Source: Oerskovia jenensis (GTDB taxonomy: Bacteria > Actinomycetota > Actinomycetes > Actinomycetales > Cellulomonadaceae). Taken from it: a DNA stretch of 64,000 bases. A program made the translations under genes and the position numbers. This document shows, one piece after another, positions 9,417-59,606 of the stretch. Location: assembly GCF_016907235.1 (NCBI RefSeq), contig NZ_JAFBBO010000001.1:2852001-2916000 (forward strand), written 5' to 3'. A model generated the notes under the pieces. That model had not been told where the DNA came from and did not search any database. It saw only the letters and a list, made by a program, of their open reading frames with translations. Numbering within the stretch: the stretch's first letter is position 1; every line of letters starts with the position of its first letter.

Positions 9417-11804
9417 GTGGCCGCCGCCGCCCGGCCGGCCCACGCCCAGGGCGTGCCCGACCGCGCCGGGCGAGCGGCGCCGTCGGGCAGGGACACGCAC
9501 TGCCCCTACTGCGCGCTGCAGTGCGGCATGACGCTCACGCCCGCGCAGGACCGTGGGCCCGACGGCGGAGCCTCACCTCGCGTGGTCGTCGCACCGCGCG
9601 AGTTCCCCACCAACAAGGGCGGGCTGTGCCAGAAGGGCTGGACCAGCGCGAGCCTGCTCACGGCGAGCGACCGGCTCACGGTCCCGCTCGTGCGCGACCG
9701 CACGGTCGACGCGTCGGGCGTCGTGACGCGCGGCGAGCTGCGGCCCGCGACGTGGGACGAGGCGCTCGGCCGGGTCGCCGACGCGATCACGGCGATCCAG
9801 GCCGAATCGGGGCGCGACGCGGTCGCGATCTTCGGCGGCGGGGGGCTCACCAACGAGAAGGCGTACGCGCTGGGCAAGCTCGCCCGGACCGTGCTGCGCA
9901 CCGCGAACATCGACTACAACGGGCGCTTCTGCATGGCGAGCGCTGCTGCCGGGGCGAACCGGGCGTTCGGCGCGGACCGCGGTCTGCCGTTCCCGCTCGC
10001 CGACCTCGCCGGGGCCGGCGCCGTGCTGCTGCTCGGCTCGAACCTTGCCGAGACCATGCCGCCCTCGGTCCAGCACCTCGCGGGCGTGCGTGAGCGCGGC
10101 GGTCTCGTGGTCGTGGACCCTCGGCGCACGGCGACCGCCGCGCTCACGGGACCGCGCGAGGGTCCGCCGCAGGGCATCCAACTGCAGCCCGTGCCGGGCA
10201 CCGACCTCGTGGTGCTGCTCGCGCTCCTGCACGTCGTGTGGGCCGAGGGCCTCGCCGACGACGAGTACCTCGCAGCGCGCGTGTCCGGGGTCGAGGACGT
10301 GCGGCGAGCGGTCGCGGCCTGGTGGCCCGAGCGGGCCGAGACCGTGTGCGGCGTCCCGGCCGACGACCTCCGCCGGGTCGCTCGGCTGCTCGCCGCGGCC
10401 TCACCCGTGCGCGGCGGGCGCGGGGCGTTCGTCCTCACGGGCCGGGGCGTCGAGCAGTCGACCCAGGGGACCGCGACCGTCACCGCGGCGATCAACCTCG
10501 CGCTCGCGCTGGGCCTGCCCGGCCGGACCGGGTCCGGGTACGGCGCGATCACCGGGCAGGGCAACGGGCAGGGCGGGCGTGAGCACGGGCAGAAGGCCGA
10601 CCAGCTCCCCGGCTACCGCAAGATCGACGACCCGGCCGCGCGCGCCCACGTCGCTGCGGTGTGGGGTGTGGACCCGGACTCGCTGCCCGGCCCGGGCAGG
10701 CCCGCGGTCGAGCTGCTGCGCTCGCTCGGGACGCCGGGCGGGCCGCGGGCACTGCTCGTGCACGGGTCGAACGTGCTGGTCAGCGCCCCGGACGCGACGC
10801 GCGTCGCGGAGCGGCTCGACGCGCTCGACCTGCTCGTGGTGTGCGACCTGGTGCCGTCCGAGACCGCGCTGCGCGCCGACGTCGTGCTGCCCGTGACGCA
10901 GTGGGCCGAGGAGGAGGGGACCATGACGTCGCTCGAGGGGCGCGTGATCCGCCGACGGCAGGCCGTGACGCCGCCGGGAGACGTGCGGTCCGAGCTGTGG
11001 GTCTTCGCCGAGCTCGCGCGCAGACTGGGCTCGGCCGTGCCCTTCCCGCTCGACCCGGCCGAGGTGTTCGACGAGCTGGCCCGGGCCTCGGCGGGCGGCG
11101 TCGCGGACTACTCGGGGCTCAGTCACGCGCGGCTCGACACCGACGAGGCCGCGGGCGGTCCGGGGCTCTACTGGCCCGTGCCGGCGGTGCCCGCTGGCTT
11201 GTCAGAACCAGCGAGTGCCATGGCCCACGCTGGTTCTGACAACCCGGGCGGGGGAGAGGCGCACCCCGGCACCCCGCGACTGTTCCTCGAGCGCTTCCAC
11301 ACCTCTGACGGGCGCGCGCGCATGGTCGCGGTCGACCACGTCGGCCCCAGCGACGACCTGCGGCCCGACGCCCCGGTCTACCTCGTGACGGGTCGCGTCC
11401 TGCAGCACTACCAGTCGGGCGCGCAGACGCGCCGCGTCGCCGACCTCGACCGGATCGTGCCCGGTCCGTTCGTCGAGATGCACCCGATCCTCGGGTTCCG
11501 TCTGGGAATCCGCGACGGCGACCCGGTGCGGCTCACGTCGGCTCGGGGCGACGTCCGGGCGCCCGCGCGGTGGAGCGACGACATCCGCACCGACACGGTG
11601 TTCATGCCCTTCCACTGGAGCGGCGCGGGCAGCGTCAACCGCATCACGACCGACGCGACCGACCCGATCTCCGGGATGCCCGAGTTCAAGGTCTGCGCGG
11701 TCGCGGTCGAGCCGGACCTGGACGGCGGCGCGGGCGCGGGCGCGGATGGCGATGGCGCGGGCGCCGGCCGGGCGCTCGAGCGCTCCGAGGAGGTGGTCGC
11801 GTGA
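9417..11804 (+). CDS. nasC: Assimilatory nitrate reductase, catalytic (molybdopterin) subunit
   Basis: A 795-residue molybdopterin oxidoreductase. The N-terminal 4Fe-4S site is CPYCALQC plus GGLC (Cys 29, 32, 36 and about 71). The Mo-bisMGD body follows with AIFGGGGLTNEKAY, LGSNLAETMPP, and TGQGNGQGGREHGQKADQLPG-type motifs. The C-terminal dinucleotide-binding domain begins near residue 610 (VYLVTGRVLQHYQSG...PFVEMHP). It reduces nitrate to nitrite in the cytosol using electrons from the NasB-like partner. At residue about 595, between the catalytic body and the C-terminal domain, a PAL-A palindrome is read in frame. A Gly/Ala-rich tail precedes the stop. GTG start at 9417, 3 bp after narK; its stop overlaps the next GTG. 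Confidence 0.9.
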   Translation: MAAAARPAHAQGVPDRAGRAAPSGRDTHCPYCALQCGMTLTPAQDRGPDGGASPRVVVAPREFPTNKGGLCQKGWTSASLLTASDRLTVPLVRDRTVDASGVVTRGELRPATWDEALGRVADAITAIQAESGRDAVAIFGGGGLTNEKAYALGKLARTVLRTANIDYNGRFCMASAAAGANRAFGADRGLPFPLADLAGAGAVLLLGSNLAETMPPSVQHLAGVRERGGLVVVDPRRTATAALTGPREGPPQGIQLQPVPGTDLVVLLALLHVVWAEGLADDEYLAARVSGVEDVRRAVAAWWPERAETVCGVPADDLRRVARLLAAASPVRGGRGAFVLTGRGVEQSTQGTATVTAAINLALALGLPGRTGSGYGAITGQGNGQGGREHGQKADQLPGYRKIDDPAARAHVAAVWGVDPDSLPGPGRPAVELLRSLGTPGGPRALLVHGSNVLVSAPDATRVAERLDALDLLVVCDLVPSETALRADVVLPVTQWAEEEGTMTSLEGRVIRRRQAVTPPGDVRSELWVFAELARRLGSAVPFPLDPAEVFDELARASAGGVADYSGLSHARLDTDEAAGGPGLYWPVPAVPAGLSEPASAMAHAGSDNPGGGEAHPGTPRLFLERFHTSDGRARMVAVDHVGPSDDLRPDAPVYLVTGRVLQHYQSGAQTRRVADLDRIVPGPFVEMHPILGFRLGIRDGDPVRLTSARGDVRAPARWSDDIRTDTVFMPFHWSGAGSVNRITTDATDPISGMPEFKVCAVAVEPDLDGGAGAGADGDGAGAGRALERSEEVVA
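11199..11242. repeat. PAL-A palindrome, copy 1 (inside nasC)
   Basis: A 44-bp palindrome with arms TGTCAGAACCAGCG / CGCTGGTTCTGACA and a mostly paired centre around CCATGG (19 of 21 positions pair in the 42-bp core). It is read in frame as LSEPASAMAHAGSDN within nasC, at the boundary of two domains. Confidence 0.9.
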
Positions 11805-13768
11805 CCGACACCGCCGAGATGTCAGAACCAGCGTGGGCCATGGGTCACGCTGGTTCTGACACCTTGTTCCGGGTCGTCGTCGTGGGCGACGGGATGGTCG
11901 GGTCGCGGTTCGTGGCTGACCTGCTCGCGAGCGTCGGACCGGGCCGGGAGCACCGCGCCCGGGCCCTGCGCGTCACCGTGCTCGGCGACGAGGGGTACGA
12001 GCCGTACAACCGTGTCCTGCTGAGCGAGGTCGTCGCGGGCCGGGCCGACATCGGTGCGCTGACCCTGCCCTCGGCCGACGACGAGCGCGTCGAGGTCCAC
12101 CGCGGTGCGCCCGCGATCGCGATCGACCGCGCCTCGCGCACCGTGCTCACGAGCGACGGGGCCTTCCCGTACGACGCCGTGGTGCTCGCGACCGGCTCGG
12201 CCGCGCGCATCCCGGACGTCCCGGGCCTGCGCGCGGGGCCCGGTGGGTCGCTGCCGGCCGGGGTGCACGCCCTGCGCACGTTCGACGACGCGCGCGAGAT
12301 CGTCGCCGCGACCGCCAACGCGCGCTCCGCCGTCGTGATCGGTGCGGGGGTCCTGGGGCTCGAGGTCGCGTGCGGCCTGGCCCGGCGCGGGCTCGCGGTG
12401 ACCGTGGTGCACGGTGGCGCGAGCCCCATGGACCGGCAGCTCGGCCCGGACGCGGGCCTCGCCGCCCTGCGCACGCTCGCCGAGCTCGGGATCACGGTGC
12501 GCACCGGGACGCGCACGCGCGAGGTCGTGGTGCGCGGCGTCGGCGGCGGGGGTGCGGTGGTTGCGGGCCTCGTCCTCGTGCCCGACGGCGGACGCTCACC
12601 TCGTGCGACCGGCGCACCCGGGGCGGGCGGCACGGGAGGGCCACCTGCCGCGGACCCGTCCGGACCGGCCGACGAGATCCCGGCCGACCTGCTCGTGCTC
12701 GCGTGCGGGACGGTGCCCGAGGCGACCCTCGCCCGGACCGCGGGCCTGACGGTGGACCGGGGAGTCGTCGTCGGGCAGGGACTGGCGAGCCCCGACGACC
12801 CGGACGTCCACGCGATCGGTGACTGCGCGCAGCCGCCCGAGGGAGGGACGGGGCTGATCGCGCAGGGGTGGGAGCAGTCGCGGCGGCTCGCGGCGCGGCT
12901 CGCCCTGCGGATATCCGCGAGGGGACCGGGGGGCGCGTCGGGGCGTTCTGGGCCCGACCCCGAGGGGGCCAGGACGCGCCCCCGCGTCCGGTTCGTCGAC
13001 GAGGACCGGCCCAGCATGGCGCTGCGGATCGCGCTCGGCGTCGAACGGAGCGCGTGGGGTCCACCGAGCCGTGGCCCCCGCGAGATACGGCCAGCTGGGG
13101 TCCACGGCGCCGCAGGACCCCCGCTGGCCGCATCTCGGGACCACCCGCGTGTCGGTGCGGCGAGGTCGTCGTCCGGAGTCGTACCGACCGAGGCGCCGCC
13201 CGCGCCGAACCCCGCACCCACGGACGTCGTGCGTCTCAAGGCCGCGGGCCTGGACGTCGTCGCGATGGGGGTCTGCGGGTCGCGGCGTCCCCACGACCCC
13301 ACCCACCGCACGCTCCGCCTGACCGACCCCGACGCGGGACGCCACGTCGAGGTCGTGGTCGCGGGAGGGTTCCTCGTCGGGGCGACCGTCGTCGGAGCCG
13401 CGCAGGTGGGCGCCGACCTCGCCGCGACCTACACGCGCCGCGTCCCCGTGCCCGCGGACCCGGCCCACCTCCTGCTGCGACCCGTCGCGCAGGCCGCGGC
13501 TCCGGCGTCGGACCCCACGCACATGCCCGACCGGACCACGGTCTGCAGCTGCAACGGCGTGACCAAGGGCGACATCGTCGCGAGCTGGCGAGAAGGTGCC
13601 CGCAGCACCACGGACATCGCACGCGCGACGCGTGCGACGACCGGGTGCGGCGGGTGCAAGGACGTCGTGTGCGGGATCGCCGACTGGTTGCGGCGAGCAG
13701 ACCCGGAGCAGGAGGGCCCCGCGCCCGCGCATCCCACGGCCCCCGAACCCGCCGGCGTGCCCCGCTGA
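11801..13768 (+). CDS. nasB: Assimilatory nitrate reductase electron-transfer subunit (FAD/NAD(P)H plus BFD [2Fe-2S])
   Basis: A 655-residue flavoprotein. An FAD Rossmann motif VVVVGDGMVGSRF is near residue 25 and an NAD(P)H motif VVIGAGVLGLEVACGL near 180. A second FAD contact is HAIGDCAQP near 331. The C-terminal BFD-type 2Fe-2S domain has CSCNGV and CGGCKDVVC near 585-625. The siroheme domain of NirB is absent, so it resembles NasB-type subunits that feed NasC. Two oddities: a PAL-A palindrome forms residues 7-20, immediately after the start, and residues about 377-446 are a Pro/Gly/Arg-rich insert built from three successive palindromes. GTG start overlaps the nasC stop (GTGA). Confidence 0.82.
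   Translation: MTDTAEMSEPAWAMGHAGSDTLFRVVVVGDGMVGSRFVADLLASVGPGREHRARALRVTVLGDEGYEPYNRVLLSEVVAGRADIGALTLPSADDERVEVHRGAPAIAIDRASRTVLTSDGAFPYDAVVLATGSAARIPDVPGLRAGPGGSLPAGVHALRTFDDAREIVAATANARSAVVIGAGVLGLEVACGLARRGLAVTVVHGGASPMDRQLGPDAGLAALRTLAELGITVRTGTRTREVVVRGVGGGGAVVAGLVLVPDGGRSPRATGAPGAGGTGGPPAADPSGPADEIPADLLVLACGTVPEATLARTAGLTVDRGVVVGQGLASPDDPDVHAIGDCAQPPEGGTGLIAQGWEQSRRLAARLALRISARGPGGASGRSGPDPEGARTRPRVRFVDEDRPSMALRIALGVERSAWGPPSRGPREIRPAGVHGAAGPPLAASRDHPRVGAARSSSGVVPTEAPPAPNPAPTDVVRLKAAGLDVVAMGVCGSRRPHDPTHRTLRLTDPDAGRHVEVVVAGGFLVGATVVGAAQVGADLAATYTRRVPVPADPAHLLLRPVAQAAAPASDPTHMPDRTTVCSCNGVTKGDIVASWREGARSTTDIARATRATTGCGGCKDVVCGIADWLRRADPEQEGPAPAHPTAPEPAGVPR
11820..11861. repeat. PAL-A palindrome, copy 2 (N-terminus of nasB)
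   Basis: 42-bp palindrome (19 of 21 positions pair), arms TGTCAGAACCAGCGTG / CACGCTGGTTCTGACA, translated in frame as MSEPAWAMGHAGSDT just before the FAD-binding strand of NasB. Confidence 0.9.
12929..13137. repeat. Cluster of three different palindromes forming a linker inside nasB
   Basis: Three inverted repeats sit in a row within one open frame: 12929-12983 (11-bp arms GGGGGCGCGTC), 13056-13079 (9-bp arms, one mismatch) and 13081-13137 (23-bp arms CGAGATACGGCCAGC..., two to three mismatches, 11-base loop). They code for a Pro/Gly/Arg-rich stretch with no recognisable fold, between the NAD(P)H/FAD body and the C-terminal part of NasB. Confidence 0.75.
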
Positions 13769-13842
13769 CAGGGCTCCCGGGGCGGCGCCGGCAGGCCGCG
13801 CGCGCGTTCTCACGCGCCGCCCCCGGCGCGCGTGAGAAGAAC

Positions 13843-13880
13843 GTTACGGCCGGGCAAAGGGGCGGGAGCGGCGCGGAAAC
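13843..13880 (+). promoter_or_regulatory. Candidate GlnR box before nirB
   Basis: GTTAC-N6-GCAAA-N6-GGAGC-N6-GAAAC, four half-sites with exact 6-bp spacers, first and last fully matching the GlnR pattern. It lies about 70 bp before the nirB start in the 181-bp gap after nasB, so nirB probably has its own nitrogen-controlled promoter. Confidence 0.6.
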
Positions 13881-13949
13881 GGCGCGTCCCTAGTGTCCGG
13901 AGCAGCAGCCGCTTCCCGGACACCCGGACCGCACCCCCCAGGAGCCCCC

Positions 13950-17119: not shown

Positions 17120-18078
17120 CGGCCGCCTCGGGGCCGAGCATGCGGTCGTCGTCGGGATCCGTCCCGGATCGGACGCCCACCGCATGCTCGGCGGACGGCA
17201 ACCGCATGCTCGGCACCGGCAGCACCGGCAGCACCGGCAGCACCGGCAGCACCGGCAGCACCGGCAGCACCGGCAGCACCGGCGGCACCGGCGGGACCGT
17301 GCCCGGCGGCTCGGTGGTGCTCGTGGGCGGCGGACCCGGCGCCGCCGACCTCCTCACGCTGCGCGCCTGGCGAGCGCTCGCGGGCGCCGACGTCGTCGTG
17401 ACCGACCGCCTGGGACCCGTCGAGGTCCTCGCCGACCTGCCCGCGGGCGTCGAGATCATCGACGTCGGCAAGACCCCGGGCCACCACCCCGTCCCGCAGC
17501 ACGAGATCAACGCGATCCTCGTCGAGCAGGCCCGCCGCGGACGACGGGTCGTGCGCCTCAAGGGCGGCGACCCGTTCGTCTACGGGCGGGGCGGCGAGGA
17601 GGTCCTCGCGTGCCGGGCCGCGGGCGTCCCGGTCGAAGTCGTGCCCGGCGTGAGCAGCGCCCTGTCCGTCCCGGCGCTCGCGGGCATCCCGCTCACGCAT
17701 CGCGGGACGGTCGGCGCGTTCCTGGTCGTGAACGGTCACGAGCCCCTGGGCGTGGTCGCGCTGGCCGCGGTGCGCGACCGCACGGCTACCCTGGTGATCC
17801 TCATGGGAGTGTCGATGCTGAGCGAGATCACGGACCAGGCGGTCACCGCCGGGGCCGACGCCGCCACGCCCGTCGCCGTGGTCGAGTCCGGTTCCACGCA
17901 GCACCAACGGGTCACGCGCGCCACGCTCGGGACGCTCGTCCGTCGTGCGGCCGAGGTCGGGGTCCGGGCGCCCGCGGTCGTCGTCGTGGGGGACGTCGCG
18001 GCCGAGGGCCTGCTCGTCCCGGACACCTTGGTATCGCTGCCCGTCCTGTCCGCCCTCGTGCCGGAGCCCGCCCTGTGA
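17116..18078 (+). CDS. cobA: Uroporphyrinogen-III C-methyltransferase
   Basis: A 320-residue SAM-dependent methyltransferase of the SUMT/CobA family, making precorrin-2 for siroheme, the NirB cofactor. The conserved core starts near residue 65: [19 protein letters not shown], then [13 protein letters not shown]-like strand, [16 protein letters not shown] near 149, [24 protein letters not shown] near 175, and [10 protein letters not shown] near 228. The first 60 residues are not SUMT-like: they are encoded by a PAL-C palindrome and a run of GST codon triplets. The GTG at 17116 overlaps the nirD stop; a later GTG at 17299 near the core could be the real start, but it lacks a clear ribosome site. 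Confidence 0.88.
17133..17192. repeat. PAL-C palindrome, copy 1 (N-terminal coding region of cobA)
   Basis: A 60-bp palindrome with arms GCCGAGCATGCGGTCGTCG / CGACGCCCACCGCATGC-TCGGC. The outer 22 bases of each arm are identical to those of the copy at 40529-40588. An extra right arm (ACCGCATGCTCGGC) follows at about 17200-17213. Confidence 0.88.
17215..17277 (+). repeat. 9-bp tandem repeat (ACCGGCAGC x7) in cobA
   Basis: Seven perfect 9-bp units encode a Thr-Gly-Ser repeat between the PAL-C element and the methyltransferase core, followed by two degenerate Thr-Gly-Gly units. The unit length keeps the frame whatever the copy number. Confidence 0.9.
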
Positions 18079-29838: not shown

Positions 29839-30001
29839 GGTGAGGTCCTTCGCGTGTGCTCGGGTCGTGCCGGGGATCTGGGCACGGCCGTCCCTCACGA
29901 GGGGGACGCCGTGCGAACCCGGCCCAGTATGCCAGCGGTGCCTCGGAGCGCCGCGTCTCATCCACAGGCGAGGCATGGGGAGAACTCCCCCCGGCAGGCC
30001 G

Positions 30002-30050
30002 CCCGACGGCGGAGCGCGCCCAGGCGGGCGAGGCGCGCTCCGCCGTCGGG
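30002..30050. repeat. Perfect 19-bp inverted repeat in the moxR / ctaG divergent gap
   Basis: CCCGACGGCGGAGCGCGCC and its exact complement flank an 11-base loop. It lies in the 339-bp gap between divergent genes, where no terminator is expected. The gap otherwise holds a smaller GGGGAG-AA-CTCCCC palindrome at 29977-29990 and the likely moxR -10 (CATACT near 29930). Confidence 0.7.
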
Positions 30051-30177
30051 GTGGCAGGGGACCTGCCGTCACGCCGGGCCGGGGGCGGGTCCGGGCGTGG
30101 CGGCGACGACTCCTCGACAGGAGACGGCGGCACGAGGGGAATACCGCGATGCACCCCATCCCGCCTACCCTGGTCGG

Positions 30178-32415: not shown

Positions 32416-32436
32416 GCTGGTGCCGTCCAGGTGCCG

Positions 32437-32487
32437 AGAACGGGGTTGAGGTCGTCATCCGCCGGATGACGACCTCAACCCCGTTCT
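32437..32487. repeat. PAL-B palindrome, copy 1 (after the CopD-CtaG gene)
   Basis: Perfect 24-bp arms beginning AGAACGGGGTTGAGGTCGTC around GCC. Position 20 bp after the stop suggests a terminator. Confidence 0.85.
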
Positions 32488-32603
32488 GGACCGCATGGTT
32501 TCCCGTTGTCGACGGTGTCCACAGGGACCCCAGCCACGAGGGTCGTCCCCAGGGCGTCGTCGGGCGGCGGCGGGTGGTCGGCGTCACCTGCTGGGATGCC
32601 CCG

Positions 32604-33608
32604 ATGCGCCACCTGTCGCGGGTACCCGAAGAGCTCCTCGTCGTCGCGCGCCGCCAGGAGGGACTGGTGTCGGCGGCGCAGTGCGACGAGCACGGACTGC
32701 GTTCGCACCGCCGTTCCCGGCTCGTCGAGCAACGGCGATGGACGCAGGTGACCCGTGGTGTCTACGACACCGACCCGGTGCCGCCGGACCGCCGGGAAGG
32801 GCCGGGGGTCCCGGACCATCGCCGTCGACGCGCCGCCTGGGCAGGTCTTCTCGCCTTCGGGCCGGACGCGATCGCCGTCGGCCCCTGCGCACTGGCACTG
32901 CTCGGCATCCAGGGGCTCCCGCTCCGGATCACCGCGCAGGCGGCGCTCCCCGGTGGGCGCGCGACGGGTTCACGGGACGGCATCCTGCTGAGGCAGTTCG
33001 ACGACGGGATGACCGTCACACGAGTCGGCGACCGGTACGTCGCCACGCCGGACTGGGCGCTCGCCCAGACCGTACCGGAGGTCGGTCGCCGCGCCGCGGT
33101 CGCCCTGATGGACAGTGCGCAGCACCGCGGCCTGCTCGACGTCCGTGGACTCGACCGTGCGCACGACATGGCGCGGGGCCGACGCGGGGTCGCCAGGACG
33201 CACTCGTGGTGGGAGCTCAGCGACCGGCGCGCCGAGTCCCCGCTCGAGACCTTCGCCCGGCTCGACTGTCTCGACGCCGGTGTCCCGCCCGACGATCTCC
33301 AGGTCGTGATCTCGGGCGACCAGGGTCAGTTCCTGGCCCGGGGCGACCTGGGTTGGCGCCTCCCGGACGAGAGCTGGCTGATCGCCGAGGTCGACGGGAC
33401 CGAGATTCACGGAGCACCCGAGGCGCTGTTCGCCGACCGGCGACGGCAGAACCTGCTCGTCGCGTCCCGAGGCGTCGCGCTGCTCCGCTTCACGGCCCGG
33501 GACCTTGCAGGTGTGGGACGAGTCGGAGCGGAGATCCGGAGCTTCCTAGGTCGAGCACGAGGTTCCGCGCGGCCGAGAACGGGATCGAGGCCGCCATCCC
33601 TCGGATAG
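32604..33608 (+). CDS. AbiEi-like N-terminal / DUF559-like C-terminal protein
   Basis: A 334-residue soluble protein. The N-terminal 60 residues (VARRQEGLVSAAQCDEHGLRS region, then RRWTQVTRGVYDTD) resemble the winged-helix antitoxin domain of AbiEi-type proteins. The C-terminal part has LIAEVDGTEIHG ... RQNLLVASRGVALLRFTARDL, resembling the DUF559 / restriction-like fold seen in a widespread actinobacterial family. No partner toxin gene is adjacent, so a toxin-antitoxin role is doubtful. The last 12 codons lie in the left arm of a PAL-B palindrome, which supplies the C-terminus. ATG at 32604 is the likely start; no clear ribosome site. Confidence 0.65.
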   Translation: MRHLSRVPEELLVVARRQEGLVSAAQCDEHGLRSHRRSRLVEQRRWTQVTRGVYDTDPVPPDRREGPGVPDHRRRRAAWAGLLAFGPDAIAVGPCALALLGIQGLPLRITAQAALPGGRATGSRDGILLRQFDDGMTVTRVGDRYVATPDWALAQTVPEVGRRAAVALMDSAQHRGLLDVRGLDRAHDMARGRRGVARTHSWWELSDRRAESPLETFARLDCLDAGVPPDDLQVVISGDQGQFLARGDLGWRLPDESWLIAEVDGTEIHGAPEALFADRRRQNLLVASRGVALLRFTARDLAGVGRVGAEIRSFLGRARGSARPRTGSRPPSLG

Positions 33609-33630
33609 CGACCTCAACCCCGTTCTCGGC
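33572..33630. repeat. PAL-B palindrome, copy 2 (overlaps a gene end)
   Basis: 59-bp palindrome, 24 of 28 arm positions pair, arms GCCGAGAACGGG... / ...CCCGTTCTCGGC. It covers the stop codon at 33606-33608 and lies between convergent genes. Confidence 0.88.
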
Positions 33631-38088: not shown

Positions 38089-39057
38089 ATGGCACCGTCC
38101 TCGTCGTCCCCGCACGCCGCCCCGCAGCCCGGGGCGGGCGTCCCGTCCCGTCCGCCGCACGCGGCCCGGTCGGCCCCCGCTGCCCCCGCCGCCCACCCGC
38201 CTCACGGCCCGCTGCACCAGCACGTGCTGGGTGAGCTGCGCCGTCGGATCGTGTCCGGCACCTACGCGATCGGAGACTCCCTGCCGTCCGAGTCCGCGCT
38301 GTGCGCCGAGTTCTCGATCTCGCGCGGCACGGTCCGCCAGGCGCTCGGGACCCTGCGCAGCGAGGGGCTCATCGGCGGGGGGCAGGGGCGCCCGCCGGTC
38401 GTGCGCTCGCGCGCGGTCCCGCAGCCCTTCGAGACGTTCCTGTCGTTCAGCCGGTGGGCCGCCGGGGTGGGTCGCGTGCCCGGTCAGCGGACCGTCGAGG
38501 TCGCGCGCCGCGGCGTGCACGGCGTCGCGGCCGACGCACTGGGGCTCGAGGAGGGCACGCCCGTGGTCGAGGTCCTGCGCCTGCGGCTGCTCGACGGCGT
38601 CCCCGCGATGGTCGAGCGCGACACGTTCATCGAGCCCGTGGGGCGCCTCATCTTCGAGTTCGACCCGGACACGGGGTCGATCTACGACCACCTCATCTCG
38701 CGCGGCGCGGACCTGCACGCCGCCCGCCACGTGATCGACGCGGTCGCGGCCGACGAGACCGACGCCGACCTGCTCGAGGTCGCCGTGGGCGCCCCTCTGC
38801 TGCGCGAGCGCCGCACCACGCGCAACGCCGCGGGCGTCCCGGTCGAGTACGCCGACGACCGCTACCTGCCCGAGCTCGCGGCCTTCACGATCGACAACAC
38901 CCAGGACACGTCGCTCTCGATGGTCCGCTTCCCGACGGCGTCGGCCGCAGCGGCGTCGCTCGTGTCGCCCCCGGCCGGTGGGGCAGACACGGCTCCCTCC
39001 GCCGACAACACTGCCGGCACCGCCGACACCGACCCGAACCAGGAGCCCTCCGCATGA
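38089..39057 (+). CDS. GntR-family (HutC subfamily) regulator of the phosphonate locus
   Basis: A 322-residue regulator. After a 40-residue Pro/Ala-rich N-terminus comes the winged helix (HQHVLGELRRRIVSGTYAIGDSLPSESALCAEFSISRGTVRQAL, residues about 43-85). The C-terminal UTRA ligand domain runs from about 110 to 270 (ALGLEEGTPVVEVLRLRLLDGVPAMVERDTF). A low-complexity Ala/Thr/Asp tail ends the protein. TATGGT six bases before the ATG suggests a leaderless transcript. Divergent from the FAD oxidoreductase and overlapping the HAD gene, it probably controls both transcripts. Confidence 0.85.
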   Translation: MAPSSSSPHAAPQPGAGVPSRPPHAARSAPAAPAAHPPHGPLHQHVLGELRRRIVSGTYAIGDSLPSESALCAEFSISRGTVRQALGTLRSEGLIGGGQGRPPVVRSRAVPQPFETFLSFSRWAAGVGRVPGQRTVEVARRGVHGVAADALGLEEGTPVVEVLRLRLLDGVPAMVERDTFIEPVGRLIFEFDPDTGSIYDHLISRGADLHAARHVIDAVAADETDADLLEVAVGAPLLRERRTTRNAAGVPVEYADDRYLPELAAFTIDNTQDTSLSMVRFPTASAAAASLVSPPAGGADTAPSADNTAGTADTDPNQEPSA

Positions 39058-39884
39058 CCAGCACGACCAGCACGGCCAGCACGTCCACGACCACCGCCCG
39101 CCCGCCCCTCGCGATCGAGCTCGTCGCGCTCGACATCGCGGGCACGACCGTCGAGGAGGGCGGCGCGGTCTACGACGCGCTGCACACGGCGGTCCTCGAG
39201 CACGGGAGCGGTGCGACGTCGTCGGACATCCAGCACTGGATGGGGGCCGAGAAGCGCGCGGCGATCACCGCCCTGCTCGCGATCGGCGTGTCAGAACCAG
39301 CGAGTGCCCTGGCCCACGCTGGTTCTGACAGGAGATCCGGTGCGCCCGGCGCACCCGGGCCCGGCGAGGCGACGGTCGACGCCGCGTTCGCGCGCTTCAC
39401 CGCGCTCCTCCGCGAGGCGTACCTCCTGAACCCCCCGACCCCGATCCCGGGCGCGCCCGAGGCCTTCGCGGCCCTGCGCGCCGCGGGCGTCAAGGTCGCG
39501 CTGACCACGGGCTTCACGCGCGAGGTGACCCGGGGGATCCTCGACGTGCTCGGCTGGACCGTCGCGTCCGGCCCCGAGCAGTGGCTCTCGCCCGAGGTCA
39601 CGCTCGACGCCGTGACGTGTGCCGACGAGGTGCCGCTGGGGCGCCCGGCGCCCTACATGGTCCACCGGGACATGGAGCGCACGGGCGTGCTCGACGTCGC
39701 GCGCGTCCTCGTCGCGGGCGACACCGTGCTCGACCTGCGGTCGGGGGTCAACGCGCGCGCCGGGGCGGTCGTCGGGGTGCTCACGGGCAAGCTGGGCGCG
39801 AGGGACCTGGGCCGCGAGCGCCACGACTTCCTGCTCGACTCGGTAGCGGACCTGCCGGAGCTCGTGGCGAGCCTCAACGCCTGA
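39054..39884 (+). CDS. Phosphonatase-like HAD hydrolase
   Basis: A 276-residue HAD-superfamily enzyme. Motif I is ALDIAGTTVEEGG (nucleophile Asp27), with the Ala-Gly-Thr seen in phosphonatases. Motif II is LTTGFTR near 151, then EVPLGRPAPYMVHRDME near 195 and motif IV VLVAGDTVLDLRSGVNA near 220. It probably cleaves the C-P bond of phosphonoacetaldehyde or a similar compound after the FAD enzyme acts. A PAL-A palindrome is read in frame at residues about 79-93, within the cap domain, followed by a Gly/Pro spacer. The first 18 residues are almost all Ser/Thr. ATG overlaps the gntR stop. Confidence 0.8.
   Translation: MTSTTSTASTSTTTARPPLAIELVALDIAGTTVEEGGAVYDALHTAVLEHGSGATSSDIQHWMGAEKRAAITALLAIGVSEPASALAHAGSDRRSGAPGAPGPGEATVDAAFARFTALLREAYLLNPPTPIPGAPEAFAALRAAGVKVALTTGFTREVTRGILDVLGWTVASGPEQWLSPEVTLDAVTCADEVPLGRPAPYMVHRDMERTGVLDVARVLVAGDTVLDLRSGVNARAGAVVGVLTGKLGARDLGRERHDFLLDSVADLPELVASLNA
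39289..39330. repeat. PAL-A palindrome, copy 3 (inside the HAD gene)
   Basis: 42 bp, 18 of 21 positions pair; read in frame as VSEPASALAHAGSDR. It differs from copy 1 at only one core base (CCCTGG for CCATGG at the centre). Confidence 0.9.
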
Positions 39885-39903: not shown

Positions 39904-39968
39904 GGTGCCGAGAACGAGGTCTCGGTCGTCATCGGCGTCAGGACGACCACAACCCCGTGCTCGGCACC
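39904..39968. repeat. PAL-B palindrome, copy 3 (convergent gene ends)
   Basis: 65 bp, 22 of 27 arm positions pair; arms GGTGCCGAGAACGAGG... / ...CGTGCTCGGCACC. Between the HAD gene and the lipoprotein gene, both ending here; likely a bidirectional terminator. Confidence 0.85.
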
Positions 39969-40494: not shown

Positions 40495-40588
40495 CGGTGG
40501 TCAGGGGCCGAGCCTGCGGTGGTCGCGGGCCGAGCATGCGGTCGTCGTCGAGAATCGGGCCGGGAGCGACGCCCACCGCATGCTCGGC
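40495..40588. repeat. PAL-C palindrome, copy 2, with two extra left arms
   Basis: The 60-bp palindrome at 40529-40588 has the same 22-base arms as the copy in cobA. Two shorter arm copies (GCCGAGCCTGCGGTGGTC) precede it in direct orientation at 40495 and 40507. It lies in the gap between the lipoprotein and S9 peptidase genes, which are divergent. Confidence 0.88.
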
Positions 40589-43398: not shown

Positions 43399-43457
43399 GC
43401 CGAGAACGGGGTTGTGGACGTGATGGGCTCCATCACGTCCACAACCCCGTTCTCGGC
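43399..43457. repeat. PAL-B palindrome, copy 4 (after the GH1 gene)
   Basis: Perfect 28-bp arms beginning GCCGAGAACGGGGTTGTGG around GCT, the best copy of the family. It lies 22 bp after the GH1 stop (minus strand). A broken arm (GGCCGAGAACCGGGGG) precedes it at 43382. Confidence 0.9.
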
Positions 43458-47909: not shown

Positions 47910-48731
47910 ATGATCGAGAACGGTCCTGGCACGCGCACCGCTGACCCTGCCGACACGGCAGCGACCCCGAAGACCGCGACGGAGAGCCCGGCGCGGACCG
48001 CGCCCACGAGCAAGAACCAGGGCAAGAACCAGGGCAAGGCCGAGGGCAAGAACCAGGGCAAGGCCGAGGGCAAGAACCAGGGCAAGGCCGAGGGCAAGCG
48101 GCCCGACGGCCGCCTCGTCCGGGGCGAGCAGCGCCGGCGCGAGATCCTGCGCACGGCCGTCGAGGTCTTCGGCGAGCAGGGCTTCCGCGGCAGCTCGCTG
48201 CGCGAGATCGCCGCGCGGGTCGGGATCTCCGAGGCCGGGCTGCTGCACCACTTCGGGAGCAAGGCCGGACTCCTGACGGCGACCATCGAGGAGCGCGACC
48301 GGCGCGACCTCGAGCGCCGCACGCAGGAGGAGACCGAGGGTGCGACCCTCCTGGCCACCATCCGGGACCAGGTCCGTCGCAACGCCGAGACGCCGGGGCT
48401 CGTCGGTCTGCACGTCGTCGTCGCGGCCGAGGCCACCGACCCCACCCACCCCGCGCACGCGGTCGTGCGGGACCGCTACCGAGCGCTGCGCCATCAGGAC
48501 GACACCCGGTTCCACGACGCGATCGATCGCGGTGAGCTGCGCCCCGAGGTCGACCCCCAGGCGATCGGGCAGCTCTTCTCCGCAGTCATGGACGGCCTGC
48601 AGCTCCAGTGGCTGCTCGACCCCGAGAACGTCGACATGGTCGCCCTCTTCGACCACTTCGTCGCGCTGCTCCAGCCGGAGCAGGGCGCGCCCCCCGCCCC
48701 CGCCCCCCTCATCGAGCAGGAGTCCACGTGA
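47910..48731 (+). CDS. TetR-family regulator with a lysine-rich tandem-repeat N-terminus
   Basis: A 273-residue regulator. The TetR helix-turn-helix lies at residues about 72-120 (RREILRTAVEVFGEQGFRGSSLREIAARVGISEAGLLHHFGSKAGLL), followed by an all-helical ligand/dimer domain. The first 65 residues are not TetR-like: residues 35-62 are GKNQGKAE-type repeats encoded by a 24-bp tandem repeat, giving a strong positive charge that may aid DNA binding. AAGGAG precedes the ATG at 47910. Divergent from the transport operon and overlapping the phosphorylase gene, it is the likely local repressor. Confidence 0.85.
   Translation: MIENGPGTRTADPADTAATPKTATESPARTAPTSKNQGKNQGKAEGKNQGKAEGKNQGKAEGKRPDGRLVRGEQRRREILRTAVEVFGEQGFRGSSLREIAARVGISEAGLLHHFGSKAGLLTATIEERDRRDLERRTQEETEGATLLATIRDQVRRNAETPGLVGLHVVVAAEATDPTHPAHAVVRDRYRALRHQDDTRFHDAIDRGELRPEVDPQAIGQLFSAVMDGLQLQWLLDPENVDMVALFDHFVALLQPEQGAPPAPAPLIEQEST
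48012..48095 (+). repeat. 24-bp tandem repeat in the TetR gene
   Basis: One 12-bp half unit (AAGAACCAGGGC) then three perfect 24-bp units (AAGAACCAGGGC + AAGGCCGAGGGC). Unit length is a multiple of three, so copy-number change would keep the frame. Confidence 0.9.
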
Positions 48732-52108: not shown

Positions 52109-52139
52109 CCCCGCCGCGCTGCGCCCGCGTGCCCGCTGT

Positions 52140-52194
52140 CGAGAACGAGGTCGAGGTCGTCCTGGGATCCAGGACGACCTCCACCTCGTTCTCG
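52140..52194. repeat. PAL-B palindrome, copy 5 (convergent gene ends)
   Basis: 25 of 26 arm positions pair, arms CGAGAACGAGGTCGAGGTCG..., loop GAT. Between the GH94 gene and the converging alpha/beta hydrolase gene; likely bidirectional terminator. Confidence 0.88.
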
Positions 52195-52955: not shown

Positions 52956-52977
52956 GGGTCCACTCTCGCGCGGCCCT

Positions 52978-52997: not shown

Positions 52998-53037
52998 ATT
53001 GTTCGAGGGGTTCCGGGGATCTCGACGGAGGCGGCAC

Positions 53038-53937: not shown

Positions 53938-53965
53938 ACGCTCCACGAGAACGGCGCCCCGCCGC

Positions 53966-54024
53966 GTCGAGAACGACCTTGAGGTCGTCCCGGGGTCCAG
54001 GACGACCTCAACCTCGTTCTCGAC
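53966..54024. repeat. PAL-B palindrome, copy 6 (after the WYL gene)
   Basis: 23 of 25 arm positions pair, arms GTCGAGAACGACCTTGAGG..., 9-base loop. It lies 28 bp after the WYL stop and before a gene on the same strand; terminator position. Confidence 0.85.
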
Positions 54025-54101
54025 CCCGTGGAGCGGCCGGGTTTCGTCCTGGCTGGTCGCGCGCGATGATGGCTGCCTGCCGACCCCCGAGGAGACCTGC
54101 C

Positions 54102-54560: not shown

Positions 54561-54573
54561 GCGGTCGGGCTGG

Positions 54574-54948: not shown

Positions 54949-54952
54949 GGGG

Positions 54953-55177
54953 TCATGCTGCCATGGCCAGCGTGCCCGTCATGACGCAGGACACCGCCGA
55001 GGCCTCGAGCCAGCGGCGCACGAGACGGGCGTCCGCGGCACGCCGCACAGGGCTGCGCAGGTTGAGGTGCGCGAAGGCCCGGTGCTCGACGAGGGCGGCG
55101 CGGTCGTGGTCGAGGGCCCAGAGGATGGCGCTACGGATCTCGTCGGTCGAGGGCCGGAACGCGTGGTCGAGGTGCAT
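54953..55177 (-). CDS. Small hypothetical protein
   Basis: A 74-residue open frame starting MHLDHAFRPSTDEIRSAILWALDHDRAALVEHRAF and ending in a hydrophobic VSCVMTGTLAMAA. It is 4 bp from the PH-domain gene start and probably cotranscribed. The start is uncertain: a GAGAG-type site precedes the ATG ending at 55177, and a TTG at 55237 is also in frame. No family recognised; coding support is codon usage and position only. Confidence 0.5.
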   Translation of the reverse strand: MHLDHAFRPSTDEIRSAILWALDHDRAALVEHRAFAHLNLRSPVRRAADARLVRRWLEASAVSCVMTGTLAMAA

Positions 55178-55373
55178 GATCACTCTCAAGGTGAGGGCCG
55201 CGGGTCTCGCGGCGGAGAAACTGTGTACACCTCTCAAGAGGGGCGAACCCGGACTTCATGACGCGACTTCCCGGAAGAAGTTTTCCTGACAGTCTGTTTC
55301 GTGAAGCGAACAGCCCCAGCGACACGGTGACTCTCGTCACGTGCTTGTCGGTGGGCCGTGCCAACCTCGACGC

Positions 55374-56411: not shown

Positions 56412-56452
56412 GCCCGCCTCGACCCGCGGTGGACGGCCGGAGGGTGGTACCG

Positions 56453-56743
56453 GTGGCGAGCATCGACCAGGCCCGGGACGCGAAGGCCGCGCTCAAGCGG
56501 GCCCTCGCGGGCCACGAGGGCGTGACGGGGATCGGGCTGACGCGCGGGCCCGCGGACGCGGCCGGTGACGCAGCGGGCGCTCGGACGGGGGCGCCGCAGG
56601 ATGCCGAGGCGCCCGCGCCCCTCGACGACACCTGGTGCCTCCAGGTCAACGTCGTCGACGCCGACGCCCGGCGCGAGGTGCCGCAGGAGGTCGACGGCGT
56701 CGCGGTCGTCGTGCGCGTCACGGGGCACGTCGGCGCGGGGTGA
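56453..56743 (+). CDS. Small protein resembling a serine-protease pro-domain
   Basis: A 96-residue protein: SIDQARDAKAALKRALAGHE, then GVTGIGLTRG, an Ala/Gly/Pro spacer, CLQVNVVDADARREV and VDGVAVVVRVTGHV. The order helix, GVxGIGxxRG, short beta strands, VDGVxVxVxxTG is the pattern of the small N-terminal domain that precedes many bacterial trypsin-like proteases. Here it is a separate gene 41 bp after a protease, so it could act as inhibitor or chaperone in trans. GTG at 56453 (GGAGGG upstream) is preferred; GTGs at 56429 and 56444 are in frame. Confidence 0.6.
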   Translation: MASIDQARDAKAALKRALAGHEGVTGIGLTRGPADAAGDAAGARTGAPQDAEAPAPLDDTWCLQVNVVDADARREVPQEVDGVAVVVRVTGHVGAG

Positions 56744-56766
56744 CGCCCGTCGTCCCACCGCACCCC

Positions 56767-56796
56767 TCGCTCTCACGCGACTCGCTCTCACGCGAC
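56767..56796 (+). repeat. 15-bp tandem duplication
   Basis: Two perfect copies of TCGCTCTCACGCGAC in the 157-bp gap before the NHLRC2-like gene. No role evident. Confidence 0.8.
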
Positions 56797-56900
56797 GAGG
56801 AATGCGGTCGACGGGAACCGCCGCGCCCCGGGCCCACCCAGGGAGTGAGGGTTCCGTCCCGGGGGTGACGGTGCGCCCCGGGGGAGGGGAGAATCCTCGG

Positions 56901-59072
56901 GTGAGCTCTACGACCCCCCACGCCCGCCTGCCCCGCGTCCGCGCCTCCGAGCTCGTCGGGCGCGGCTGGCTCAACACCGGCGGCCGCGACGTCACGCTCG
57001 CGGACCTGCGCGGCCGGGTCGTCGTCCTCGACTTCTGGACCTTCTGCTGCGTCAACTGCCTGCACGTCCTCGACGAGCTGCGCGAGCTCGAGGAGGCCCG
57101 CCGCGACGACCTCGTCATCATCGGCGTCCACTCGCCGAAGTTCGAGCACGAGGCAGACCCGGTCGCGCTCGCCGCCGCGGTCGAGCGCTACGAGGTGCGC
57201 CACCCCGTCCTCGACGACCCCGAGCTCGTCACCTGGTCCGCGTACACCGCGCGGGCCTGGCCGACGCTCGTCGTGATCGACCCCGAGGGCTACGTCGTCG
57301 CGCAGATGGCAGGCGAGGGGCACGCCTCGGCGCTCGCCGCGCTCGTCGACGAGCTCGTGACCGAGCACCGCGCCAAGGGCACGCTGCGGTCCCTCGCCGC
57401 GGGGAGCGACGACGTCTACGTGCCGCCCGCCCCGACGTCGGGCACGCTGCGCTTCCCCGCCAAGGCGATCGCGCTCCCGGGGGGCAACCTCCTGGTCGCG
57501 GACGCGGGGCACCACTCGCTCGCCGAGCTCGGGCCCGACGGCGAGACGCTCGTCCGGCGCATCGGGTCCGGCGAGCGCGGGCTCGTCGACGGAGGGCCGG
57601 ACGTGGCGCGGTTCAGCGAGCCCAACGGGCTGTGCCTGGTCCCGACCGAGCTGCGTGCCCACCTCGGCTACGACGTCCTGGTCGCGGACACGGTCAACCA
57701 CGCGCTGCGCGGCGTGCGCCTCGCGGACGGCCGGGTGACGACGGTGGCGGGGAACGGGCAGCAGTACATGGTGGGGGCGGTCGACAACGTGCTCGCGGCC
57801 GCTGACGGTGGTGCGCCGGTCGGTGAGACGCTCGCCGAGGTCGACGGGCCGTTCGGATCGCGACTCACGGTCCTCGTCGGCGCGGACACACCGGAGCAGC
57901 CCAGGCCCGCGGGCCTGCCCGCGACGATCGAGAACGCGGGCGGCGCCGTGCTGCAGAAGCTGTCGTCGCCCTGGGACGTGGCCTGGGTCGAGCAGGCGGG
58001 GGCCTTCCTCGTCGCGATGGCGGGCAACCACTCGCTGTGGGCCTTCGACGGCGAGCAGGGATCGATCGACCTCGTCGGCGGCACCATGAACGAAGGTCTG
58101 CTCGACGGGCCGCTCGTCGACGCCTGGTTCGCGCAGCCGTCCGGGCTGGCCGTCGGCCCGGACCAGCGCGTGTGGGTCGCGGACTCGGAGACGTCGGCGC
58201 TGCGTGTGGTGACCCCGGTCGCCGGGACGACGCAGGGAGAGGTGAGCACCGCCGTCGGGCAGGGGCTGTTCGACTTCGGGCACCGTGACGGCGCGGCCGA
58301 CCAGGCGCTGCTCCAGCATCCGCTCGGGGTCGCGGTGCTGCCCGATGGCAGCGTGGTCGTCGCCGACACCTACAACGGGGCGATCCGTCGCTACGTCCCG
58401 CCCGCCCCGCCCTCCCCGCCCGTCGTGTCAGAACGAGCGAGCACCCCAGGCCACGCTGGTTCTGACAAGAACGTGGGGGAGGTGACGACCCTGGCGACGG
58501 GCCTCGCGGAGCCGAGCGACGTCGTCGTGCTCGTGGCCGGGGAGCCGTGGGCTCCCGGTGAGGCCACCGCGGCGGGGGCGCGCGTCGACCTGCTCGTCGT
58601 GGAGTCCTCCTCGCACCGCATCACGCGCGTCACGCTCCCGGCGACGCTCGCGGGAGAGGTGCTCGACGGCGGCGCGCACCGCACGCAGCGGCCCGTCACC
58701 GACGTCGTGGCCGGGGAGCTGCGGCTCGACGTGCCGTTCTCGCCCGCGCCGGGGCAGAAGCTCGACGACCGCTACGGGCCCTCGACGCGCCTGACCGTGA
58801 GCGCGACACCGCCCGAGCTGCTGCTGGAGGGCGCCGGCACGGGGACCGAACTGTCCCGTGCGCTCGTCGTCAACCCCGAGGTGACCGAGGGCGTGCTGCA
58901 CGTGACCGCCCAGGCCGCGTCGTGCGACGTCGTGCCGCTGCTCGCCGACGGGACGCCCGACCCCGACGTGTTCCCCGCGTGCCACCTCGCCCAGCAGGAC
59001 TGGGGCGTGCCGGTGCGGATCGTGGGCGATTCCCCGGACGATCGGGTGCTGACGCTCCCGCTGCGGGGCTGA
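56901..59072 (+). CDS. NHLRC2-like thioredoxin-domain / NHL-repeat protein
   Basis: A 723-residue protein. The N-terminal thioredoxin-like domain (residues about 15-155) has DFWTFCCVNCLHVLDEL near 49 with a CCVNC redox motif. NHL-type beta-propeller blades follow (LLVADAGHHSLAELGPDG, VLVADTVNHALRGV, VWVADSETSALRVV, VVVADTYNGAIRRY) to about residue 500, then a C-terminal beta-sandwich. This matches the NHLRC2 family conserved from bacteria to humans. At residues about 509-523 a PAL-A palindrome is read in frame, just after a propeller blade. No signal peptide. GAGAAT about 7 nt before the GTG suggests a leaderless transcript. Confidence 0.88.
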   Translation: MSSTTPHARLPRVRASELVGRGWLNTGGRDVTLADLRGRVVVLDFWTFCCVNCLHVLDELRELEEARRDDLVIIGVHSPKFEHEADPVALAAAVERYEVRHPVLDDPELVTWSAYTARAWPTLVVIDPEGYVVAQMAGEGHASALAALVDELVTEHRAKGTLRSLAAGSDDVYVPPAPTSGTLRFPAKAIALPGGNLLVADAGHHSLAELGPDGETLVRRIGSGERGLVDGGPDVARFSEPNGLCLVPTELRAHLGYDVLVADTVNHALRGVRLADGRVTTVAGNGQQYMVGAVDNVLAAADGGAPVGETLAEVDGPFGSRLTVLVGADTPEQPRPAGLPATIENAGGAVLQKLSSPWDVAWVEQAGAFLVAMAGNHSLWAFDGEQGSIDLVGGTMNEGLLDGPLVDAWFAQPSGLAVGPDQRVWVADSETSALRVVTPVAGTTQGEVSTAVGQGLFDFGHRDGAADQALLQHPLGVAVLPDGSVVVADTYNGAIRRYVPPAPPSPPVVSERASTPGHAGSDKNVGEVTTLATGLAEPSDVVVLVAGEPWAPGEATAAGARVDLLVVESSSHRITRVTLPATLAGEVLDGGAHRTQRPVTDVVAGELRLDVPFSPAPGQKLDDRYGPSTRLTVSATPPELLLEGAGTGTELSRALVVNPEVTEGVLHVTAQAASCDVVPLLADGTPDPDVFPACHLAQQDWGVPVRIVGDSPDDRVLTLPLRG
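58426..58467. repeat. PAL-A palindrome, copy 4 (inside the NHLRC2-like gene)
   Basis: The most diverged copy: 15 of 21 positions pair. Left arm has the GAACGAGCG variant also seen in copy 5. Read in frame as VSERASTPGHAGSDK, the same frame as the other intragenic copies. Confidence 0.85.
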
Positions 59073-59113
59073 GGCCGCACCGGCGGACGGGCTGAGATCG
59101 GACGAGGACACGC

Positions 59114-59146
59114 CCAGGGCCGGGCTTCGACGAAGCCCGGCCCTGG
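59114..59146. terminator. Bidirectional terminator
   Basis: Perfect 16-bp arms (CCAGGGCCGGGCTTCG and complement) around one base, between the convergent NHLRC2-like and secreted-peptide genes. No T-run. Confidence 0.75.
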
Positions 59147-59154
59147 TGAGTACG

Positions 59155-59406
59155 TCAGCAGGCCGTCCAGCTGTGGCCCAGGATGTGACCCGCGGTGCTG
59201 AAGGTCTTGGACTGACCACCCAGCAGACGGTAGGGGGAGTTGAACGGGCCGCCACCTCCGGCGTTGACCCAGGTGACCACGAGGACGCGGCAGCTGCCGA
59301 ACGTGTTCGTGTACGTCTTGGTCTCGGCGGCGTTGGCGGCGGTGGGTGCTGCCAGCATCAGTGCGGCGGTCGTGGCGATGACGGCGATGGCCTTCTTGAA
59401 CTTCAT
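59155..59406 (-). CDS. Small secreted two-cysteine peptide
   Basis: An 83-residue precursor with a Sec signal peptide (MKFKKAIAVIATTAALMLAA..., cleavage after ANA near 26). The mature part is about 57 residues, begins AETKTYTNTF, has two cysteines (GSCRVLV near residue 40 and the last residue, WTAC), a Gly-rich middle (NAGGGGPFNSPYRLLGG) and ends HSWTAC. The cysteines could form one disulfide closing a loop of about 43 residues. It has a strong ribosome site (AAGGAG). I recognise no family; a secreted bacteriocin-like, structural or signalling peptide are all possible. Confidence 0.75.
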   Translation of the reverse strand: MKFKKAIAVIATTAALMLAAPTAANAAETKTYTNTFGSCRVLVVTWVNAGGGGPFNSPYRLLGGQSKTFSTAGHILGHSWTAC

Positions 59407-59562
59407 CGTTCTCCTTGAAGGGTCGTGATGCACGAGGCATCCGACACCAGGCTCGCCCCCTGTGGACGTGGTGTCGATCACAGAGCCTGGCATATGGAAG
59501 GACCGCGCACCATTTATAGGCGGACGGCCCTCCGCGTGCCTCCCCAGGCCACGGCCCCGGAC

Positions 59563-59606
59563 GTGTCAGAACGAGCGTGACCTCGAGGTCACGCTCGTTC
59601 TGACAC
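59563..59606. repeat. PAL-A palindrome, copy 5 (intergenic, fully perfect)
   Basis: A perfect 44-bp palindrome, 22 of 22 pairs, arms GTGTCAGAACGAGCGTGACC, centre TCGA. It is the only full PAL-A outside a gene, 6 bp after the EIIA stop. In this place it may act as a terminator. The rest of the gap 59407-59562 holds the leader of the secreted peptide gene and a TATAAA-like stretch near 59512-59517 (minus strand). Confidence 0.92.

Follow-up and report, generated by a model that had tools for sequence, protein, structure and literature searches.

A TGTCAG family of palindromic elements in Oerskovia and related genera, read in a single frame within genes

The PAL-A palindromes dispersed through the genome of Oerskovia jenensis (G000) are the Oerskovia member of a wider TGTCAG family with lineage-specific inner arms, and within genes only copies open in one and the same frame were found. 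Conservation in one species pair showed, at the level of sequence, that the arms are under DNA-level selection while the middle of the element drifts. We lean slightly towards a REP- or RPE-like element with a mobile past, the arms of which would have been kept by selection as recognition sites of a putative factor. An earlier, sequence-only reading of the same DNA had proposed an RPE-like mobile insert; that interpretation as a whole was partly supported, and the wider family with its differing inner arms, the selection on the arms and the near independence of the two halves go beyond it.

Copies in the window, the genome and the family

The stretch of DNA analyzed (the window) comprised 64,000 nucleotides, positions 2852001-2916000 of the 4.45-Mb one-contig genome of O. 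jenensis. Gene boundaries were codon-model calls made for this analysis and not curated annotation. Five PAL-A copies were present in the window, with 11 arm matches, a number reached by none of 100 shuffles. All five had been described previously, with starts at 11199 and 59563 that include one extra paired base on each side, and the four genic copies indeed shared one frame (offset 2, as defined below). The copies were as follows.

11200..11241 (+), type A, in frame within nasC (gene 9528-11804), where it lies between the Molybdopterin domain and the Molydop_binding domain and encodes SEPASAMAHAGSD
11820..11861 (+), type A, close to the N-terminus of nasB, encoding SEPAWAMGHAGSD
39289..39330 (+), type A, in frame within a HAD hydrolase gene (39054-39884), encoding SEPASALAHAGSD
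58426..58467 (+), type A, in frame within an NHLRC2-like thioredoxin/NHL gene (56901-59072), encoding SERASTPGHAGSD
59564..59605 (no strand assigned), type A and perfectly palindromic, between genes (gap 59407-59612), where an offset 2 reading would meet a TGA

Pfam assigned the four hosts as a molybdopterin oxidoreductase, a Pyr_redox_2/BFD reductase, a HAD hydrolase and a thioredoxin/NHL protein. Comparison with other Oerskovia genomes indicated that the nasC linker was exactly 54 nt longer in O. jenensis than in G004 and G005 and that the NHLRC2-like site was 48 nt shorter in G004. The nasB insert lies directly after the fourth codon when the start is taken as 11801 (the gene caller placed it at 11840), and G004, which has no insert, reads MTDTMFRVV at the same place. 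An apparent remnant of the left arm was detected at the HAD hydrolase site of G004, and all 42 bases of the intergenic copy at 59564..59605 were kept in O. turbata.

The exact pattern TGTCAGAAC[CG]AGCG-N14-CGCT[CG]GTTCTGACA occurred 60 times in O. jenensis and its reversed control not at all, in keeping with the prediction of a dispersed repeat with further genomic copies. With spacers of 10 to 20 permitted, all of the 50 exact copies listed were 42 bp in length. The same full pattern was found 52 times in O. turbata NRRL B-8019 (G006) and 5, 4, 1, 0 and 0 times in the other Oerskovia genomes. Relaxing the pattern to the outer 10 bases gave 68 copies in O. jenensis, and relaxing it to TGTCAG-N30-CTGACA gave 88. 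This last pattern matched 59 of 221 genomes of the family, in 16 of 25 genera and with a maximum of 200 copies per genome, and its reversed control matched 1 of the 221. At least 10 copies were present in 32 genomes from 10 genera, as counted from the family listing; genomes with a single match may owe it to chance, and the matches in G164 and G165 had interiors that were not palindromic. An order-wide draw of 396 genomes yielded 32 with matches, 9 inside the family and 23 outside it. Among the latter, G289 and G315, from one other family, had seven clear palindromes each and G248, from a third family, had one perfect palindrome; the remaining genomes had one or two matches, which is the chance level because the reversed control matched once in 19 genomes.

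Among the copies listed, the inner arms varied by lineage. O. jenensis and O. turbata had type A, G002 and the greater part of G003 had type B (AASYRRRCCGG), and the single genome of G157 had two types; G013 and G022 looked alike. Carriage by phages was rejected, as no viral contigs with type A were detected. No description of a TGTCAG palindrome family appeared among the open-access titles listed.

The window also contained other repeats. Six copies belonged to a second palindrome family, about 57 bp long (GCCGAGAACGGGGTT...AACCCCGTTCTCG); all were at, or shortly beyond, the 3' end of a called gene, and G004 had a relative (L134:4376).

32433-32489, 33572-33628, 39907-39963, 43399-43455, 52138-52194 and 53966-54022, copies of the second palindrome family

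A third family of about 62 bp (GGGCCGAGCATGCGG...CCGCATGCTCGGC) was present at 17131-17192 and 40527-40588, with a relative in G004 (L135:2850). A palindrome of about 51 to 55 bp (CCCGACGGCGGAGC...GCTCCGCCGTCGGG) at 30001-30051 was found in two other Oerskovia genomes (L143:219 and, in a shorter form, L127:5422). Two tandem repeats were noted, one of 9 bp (GCACCGGCA) at 17195-17308, within the called gene 17140-18078, and one of 12 bp (GGCAAGAACCAG) at 47998-48110, outside called genes.

Reading frame and host proteins

All 82 copies lying wholly within called genes, from eight genomes, were open in the frame designated offset 2 (xTG-TCA-G...GAC-A), and none of them used offset 0. Wholly genic copies made up 20 of the 77 examined in O. 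jenensis, 15 of 49 in G002 and 21 of 66 (of 79) in O. turbata; 3 of 21 (of 200), 1 of 12 (of 67) and 15 of 35 (of 98) in the partial samples of G192, G013 and G157; and 5 of 5 (of 13), 2 of 4 (of 23) and 0 of 3 (of 37) in the small samples of G116, G127 and G131, the regions from G157, G116, G127, G131 and G013 having been picked for element clusters. As the O. turbata copies are mostly orthologous to those of O. jenensis, 61 is a fairer count than 82, and several genic copies sit in one gene or in orthologous genes. Copies crossing a gene end were in offset 2 in 11 cases and in offset 1 in one. These in-frame genic copies, confined to one frame, bore out the RPE-like behavior that had been proposed.

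The earlier observation of a TGA in another frame also held, as offset 1 contained a TGA in all five window copies and was closed by a stop in each of the intergenic copies tested. Offset 0 was open in all five window copies, yet the four genic ones use offset 2. For the 52 intergenic copies of O. jenensis (104 readings), offset 0 was open in 103 readings and offset 2 in 42, so that the frame used in genes is the one that the usual type-A sequence closes. The corresponding numbers of open readings for offsets 0 and 2 were 51 and 62 of 64 in G002, 17 and 28 of 36 in G192 and 39 and 38 of 40 in G157. A TGA at positions 15 to 17 was found in none of 20 upstream halves in O. jenensis genes and in 11 of 20 downstream halves, which are read differently, as compared to 33 of 52 upstream and 28 of 52 downstream halves between genes. 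Genic peptides had the form [LMV]-S-[EDGA]-...-D. The mean Kyte-Doolittle hydropathy of the offset 2 peptides was -1.22 for the 61 genic copies, versus 0.02 for offset 0 in the 56 of them open there. The more hydrophilic nature of the offset 2 peptide may account for the absence of offset 0 and is our best guess, short of proof; binding of the DNA by a factor leaves this absence unexplained.

Sixteen host proteins of O. jenensis were ordinary enzymes and transporters, unrelated to one another. By our own reading of Pfam envelopes, 16 of 21 copies lay outside domains, and the five inside were in the HAD hydrolase, an MFS transporter (near the middle), a P-type ATPase (two copies) and HemD. Placement of every insert at a domain boundary, the N-terminus or a loop had been suggested; this agreed with nasC, where the copy is between domains, and with nasB, where it is near the N-terminus, but not with the HAD copy, which spans about residues 79 to 92 within a PF00702 envelope of 21 to 234. 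An AlphaFold2 model of NasC was uninformative, with a mean pLDDT of 57 and values below 50 in the insert region. In G149 the nasC linker (L242) carried two elements 60 bp apart in the same frame. At nine genic sites for which G004 lacked all or part of the element, O. jenensis was longer by 63, 39, 54, 54, 73, 42, 48, 51 and 69 nt, the 73-nt difference additionally spanning the end of nasC. The clean 14-residue insertions expected from the 42-bp core were therefore not observed, and some of the flank belongs to the insertion. Relative to the 90% coding content of the window, the wholly genic share in O. jenensis (20/77) indicated a depletion in genes.

Half-sites, conserved arms and orthologous sites

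The two halves of the element varied mostly independently of each other, which argues for a pair of inverted half-sites rather than a hairpin. At most variable positions in O. jenensis and G002, the left half matched the right about as often as expected, and compensatory changes between the arms were not apparent at most variable positions of these two genomes, where pairing was near expectation. Weak agreement was limited to a few positions, such as position 10 in intergenic copies of O. jenensis (35 of 52 versus 27.8 expected) and positions 9 to 11 in G192 (n = 21). A transcribed hairpin acting as a terminator or mRNA stabilizer could draw on this weak agreement and on the preference of intergenic copies for the 3' ends of genes, as 17 of 52 in O. 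jenensis were in convergent gaps and 6 of 52 in divergent gaps, while divergent gaps make up about half of the bases (3,011 of 6,195) in window gaps of at least 20. The general lack of covariation within copies, the many copies inside translated genes and the lower complementarity of the halves in genes (position 15 paired in 5 of 25 copies, 10.8 expected) make this explanation rather improbable.

Conserved flanking bases extended the site in some lineages (AC[T] in G002, ACTC in type D of G157 and CGAG in G013), and the commonest outward 4-mers were CGTC or ACCC in O. jenensis, ACTC in G002 and CGTC or CGTG in G192. Among 47 spacings of less than 160 bp between neighboring copies, taken from the copies examined or listed, 33 were 60 to 64 bp. 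Helical phasing of the 14 others gave a Rayleigh p of about 0.18 at 10.5 bp (0.02 at 10.0 and 0.05 at 11.0), and no phasing is claimed. Clustering at the replication terminus was dropped as a candidate, the GC skew of the O. jenensis loci examined being too weak.

Traces of mobilization were sought in several ways. Abutting direct repeats of k = 5 to 9 were absent from O. jenensis, G002 and G157, and one of k = 6 was found in G192; small excesses were seen at k = 4 in O. jenensis (2 versus 0.36 expected) and at k = 2 in G157 (13 versus 5.6). The REP-associated tyrosine transposase that the earlier reading had pointed to (Y1/RAYT, PF01797) was detected in none of the seven Oerskovia genomes by a search that was positive in 5 of 14 control genomes, and RAYT was rejected as the mobilizer. 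Among the 25 Pfam families listed of 77, from 51 proteins that were nearly all neighbors or hosts of elements, there was neither a transposase nor a convincing family common to sites beside elements, and blastp across five genomes gave no convincing gene family common to element neighbors.

The arms were compared between O. jenensis and O. turbata in 44 gapless pairs; of 68 sites, 14 had no O. turbata locus available for comparison, and gaps or truncation led to the exclusion of a further 10 from the rates. Differences in the arms amounted to 10 of 504 positions (2.0%) in 18 genic pairs and 10 of 728 (1.4%) in 26 intergenic pairs, as compared to 40 of 252 (16%) and 51 of 364 (14%) in the inner 14 bases and 250 of 2,070 (12%) and 321 of 2,511 (13%) in the near flanks. 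For site 3074788, which had two candidate O. turbata copies, the one on the right was used. As exact arms were the main means of retrieving the O. turbata loci, a count over all 68 sites was added: identical arms were present at the orthologous site in 33, and flank divergence predicts fewer than 2. Within O. jenensis, for loci selected around near-exact copies, arm mismatches numbered 0 in 60 copies, 1 in 15, 2 in two, 3 in two and 5, 7 and 8 in one each, with only chance matches beyond. The distribution in 400 kb of G004 chosen for synteny was broad (0 mismatches in one copy, 2 in three, 3 in one, 4 in three, 6 in one, 7 in one, 8 in two and 9 in one), and a shuffled control matched only at 9 mismatches; the spread represents decayed copies. 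In a nasC tree O. turbata grouped with O. jenensis and G005, with G004 outside, and this tree together with the 60, 52 and 5 exact copies suggests that two lines retained the constraint and that G005 and G004 lost it. Two further observations were made at single sites. At 3133487 of contig C1 the whole element appears inverted between O. jenensis and O. turbata (L060), and a G004 copy (L143:6219-6260) has mirrored changes in both arms (CGTCAGGACGGGCG...CGCCCGTCCTGACG), possibly the onset of another dialect.

A purely selfish REP- or MITE-like element, with the likeness of copies due to recent spread or homogenization and no host function, would fit the patchy copy number within genera, the differences in presence between sister species and the depletion in genes. 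Indeed, the patchy distribution (at least 10 copies in 32 of 221 genomes) and apparent rapid loss fit such an element as well as they do selected recognition sites, and this weakens our main explanation. The identity of so many arms at O. turbata sites is contrary to a selfish origin, as are the site-by-site differences in the middle 14 bases, which neither recency nor conversion would leave, and the lack of a Y1 transposase in the genus and of target duplications. We regard it as unlikely.

Homologous hosts with an element at the same residue were found in many pairs by unmasked blastp, which could align the element peptides themselves; the elements were therefore masked in a second comparison. 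By our own reading, elements were then at the same site in nasC (O. jenensis, G002 and G157) and in PutA, a helicase and biotin carboxylase (O. jenensis and G002), and these same-site elements carried different dialects. They were 1 to 4 residues apart in a CCG protein, in an E2 acyltransferase, in nasC of G116, in a G127 P-type ATPase and at a second nasC site (G157 and G116), and at different sites in a CoA-transferase, an ABC protein and the G002 P-type ATPase (O. jenensis/G002 at 589), the last two of which had coincided before masking. The element position also differed between nasB hosts. At the other P-type ATPase site G002 had a decayed copy of equal length, and in nasC and PutA lengths were equal on both sides between O. 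jenensis and G002. One half of the G002 PutA copy was B-like and the other A-like, a mixture that leans towards rewriting in place. The nasC linker was hypervariable, at 27 to 156 nt among the 22 genomes listed, with 96 nt common to three genomes with the insert and 42 nt common to two without it. Given this variability and the identical shortening of G004 and G005 by 54 nt, shared sites may stem either from rewriting in place or from elements that repeatedly entered a permissive linker; vertical inheritance of every shared site is likewise not proven, as the G002, G157, G116 and G127 loci were chosen for their elements.

Ordinary ancestral linker peptides with no element involved are a scarcely credible alternative. 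The same peptide at the same sites in distant orthologues had been named as what would refute an inserted element, and some orthologues from other genera did have an insert at or near the same residue. The peptides differed among orthologues, so that these are not simply ancestral protein sequence; sister species without the insert, identical DNA between genes and the 60 dispersed copies also contradict this alternative.

A possible case of spread was seen at position 1848374, where O. jenensis has a copy and O. turbata and G004 share one empty site. Because a degenerate G002 copy occupies the same gap, this is either a gain in O. jenensis or a shared loss; the earlier view of a spreading element is thus plausible at this site, with shared loss as the other possibility. 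At 2935192 of contig C1 (L097:3001) O. jenensis has a whole element and O. turbata and G004 have only the end of the right arm, with an identical breakpoint, which would look like the extension of a half-site to a full one.

The explanation towards which we lean, that of a once-mobile element with selected arms, would involve several steps. The family would consist of elements of roughly 50 to 60 bp with two inverted half-sites, a constant outer TGTCAG, lineage-specific inner bases and short conserved flanks. Copies would have accumulated behind genes and in protein linkers through a mobile or copying process, of which one possible gain was seen. Genic copies are those open in offset 2, type A doing so with an upstream half free of the in-frame TGA, and in some lineages selection on the DNA appears to keep the arms while the middle drifts. 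Each half-site would be recognized in double-stranded DNA by a putative binding factor, lineage specific and losable, which may be a chromosome-binding protein or the enzyme responsible for the former spread of the element. Changes in its specificity would then yield dialects, and some orthologues would thereby carry different ones at the same codon. A more specific proposal is possible but doubtful: that 60 to 200 two-half-site elements, a quarter to a third of them within proteins in Oerskovia, are rewritten in place as a putative DNA-binding partner changes specificity, with different dialects at the same codon under both DNA and protein constraint. If our explanation is true, one short DNA sequence would serve under two codes, half-site recognition and a tolerated linker peptide in one frame, and it would become testable why conserved genes retain palindromic repeats of the RPE kind. 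The apparent losses in G004 and G005 and the presence of type A and type B within one genus would then mean that the putative partner could be found by gene content.

Comparison with known repeat systems

RPEs are described as palindromic repeats of about 150 bp found in frame in unrelated genes (MITE review, PMC10969869). The PAL-A family resembles them in its in-frame insertion into unrelated genes, with 82 of 82 copies open in one frame. Compared by description, it differs in that its 42-bp core is made of two half-sites, in that the inner arms vary and the arms are selected, and in that a single frame is used across genera. It also differs from MITEs in having no target-site duplication (k = 5 to 9; O. 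jenensis, G002 and G157).

GTAG and CGTC REPs are described as short palindromes near gene 3' ends, often species specific, with dimers and some intragenic copies, and as having a stem-loop with an unpaired tag at one end; Rickettsia conorii RPE-4 and RPE-6 have been classed as CGTC repeats (Di Nocera et al. 2013, PMC3733652). The main text of that paper never uses the word actinobacteria. PAL-A shares the short palindromes near gene 3' ends, the dimers, the occurrence of some copies in genes and the frequent species specificity. Unlike GTAG REPs, it ends in TGTCAG/CTGACA on both sides with no GTAG tag and is present in a genus without a Y1 transposase. CGTC REPs have an unpaired CGTC, TGTC or CCTC and a stem of 8 to 9 bp, whereas both PAL-A ends are alike and the TGTC is inside the palindrome. 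CGTC followed the element ends in 6 of 50 genic and 12 of 104 intergenic cases in O. jenensis and in 3 of 6 and 6 of 36 in G192, and was outside the eight commonest 4-mers in G002.

The DUS of Neisseriaceae are 10 to 12 bp in length. A species-recognition signal like their dialects, kept by biased uptake and recombination, would by analogy account for a constant core with lineage-specific variants, for two types within G157 and for dispersal in coding as well as intergenic DNA. Eight DUS dialects with a common core have been described; one genome has two of them, dyad-symmetric pairs occur, and all dialects but one have a UGA in one frame (PMC3630211). The TGTCAG family has 60 to 200 paired half-sites, as opposed to thousands of short signals (1,543 to 3,770 repeats per genome), and follows a one-frame rule, as opposed to the lack of a frame preference in the genome examined in that paper (PMC3630211). 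A DUS-like signal is accordingly quite improbable.

The recognition sites that our explanation proposes would have a parallel in those of chromosome-binding proteins. Noc, SlmA and MatP have palindromic binding sites throughout the chromosome, tens of them dispersed and some within genes, which are shorter than the TGTCAG elements and stable within a clade. The TGTCAG elements, by comparison, are longer and switch their inner arms within one genus.
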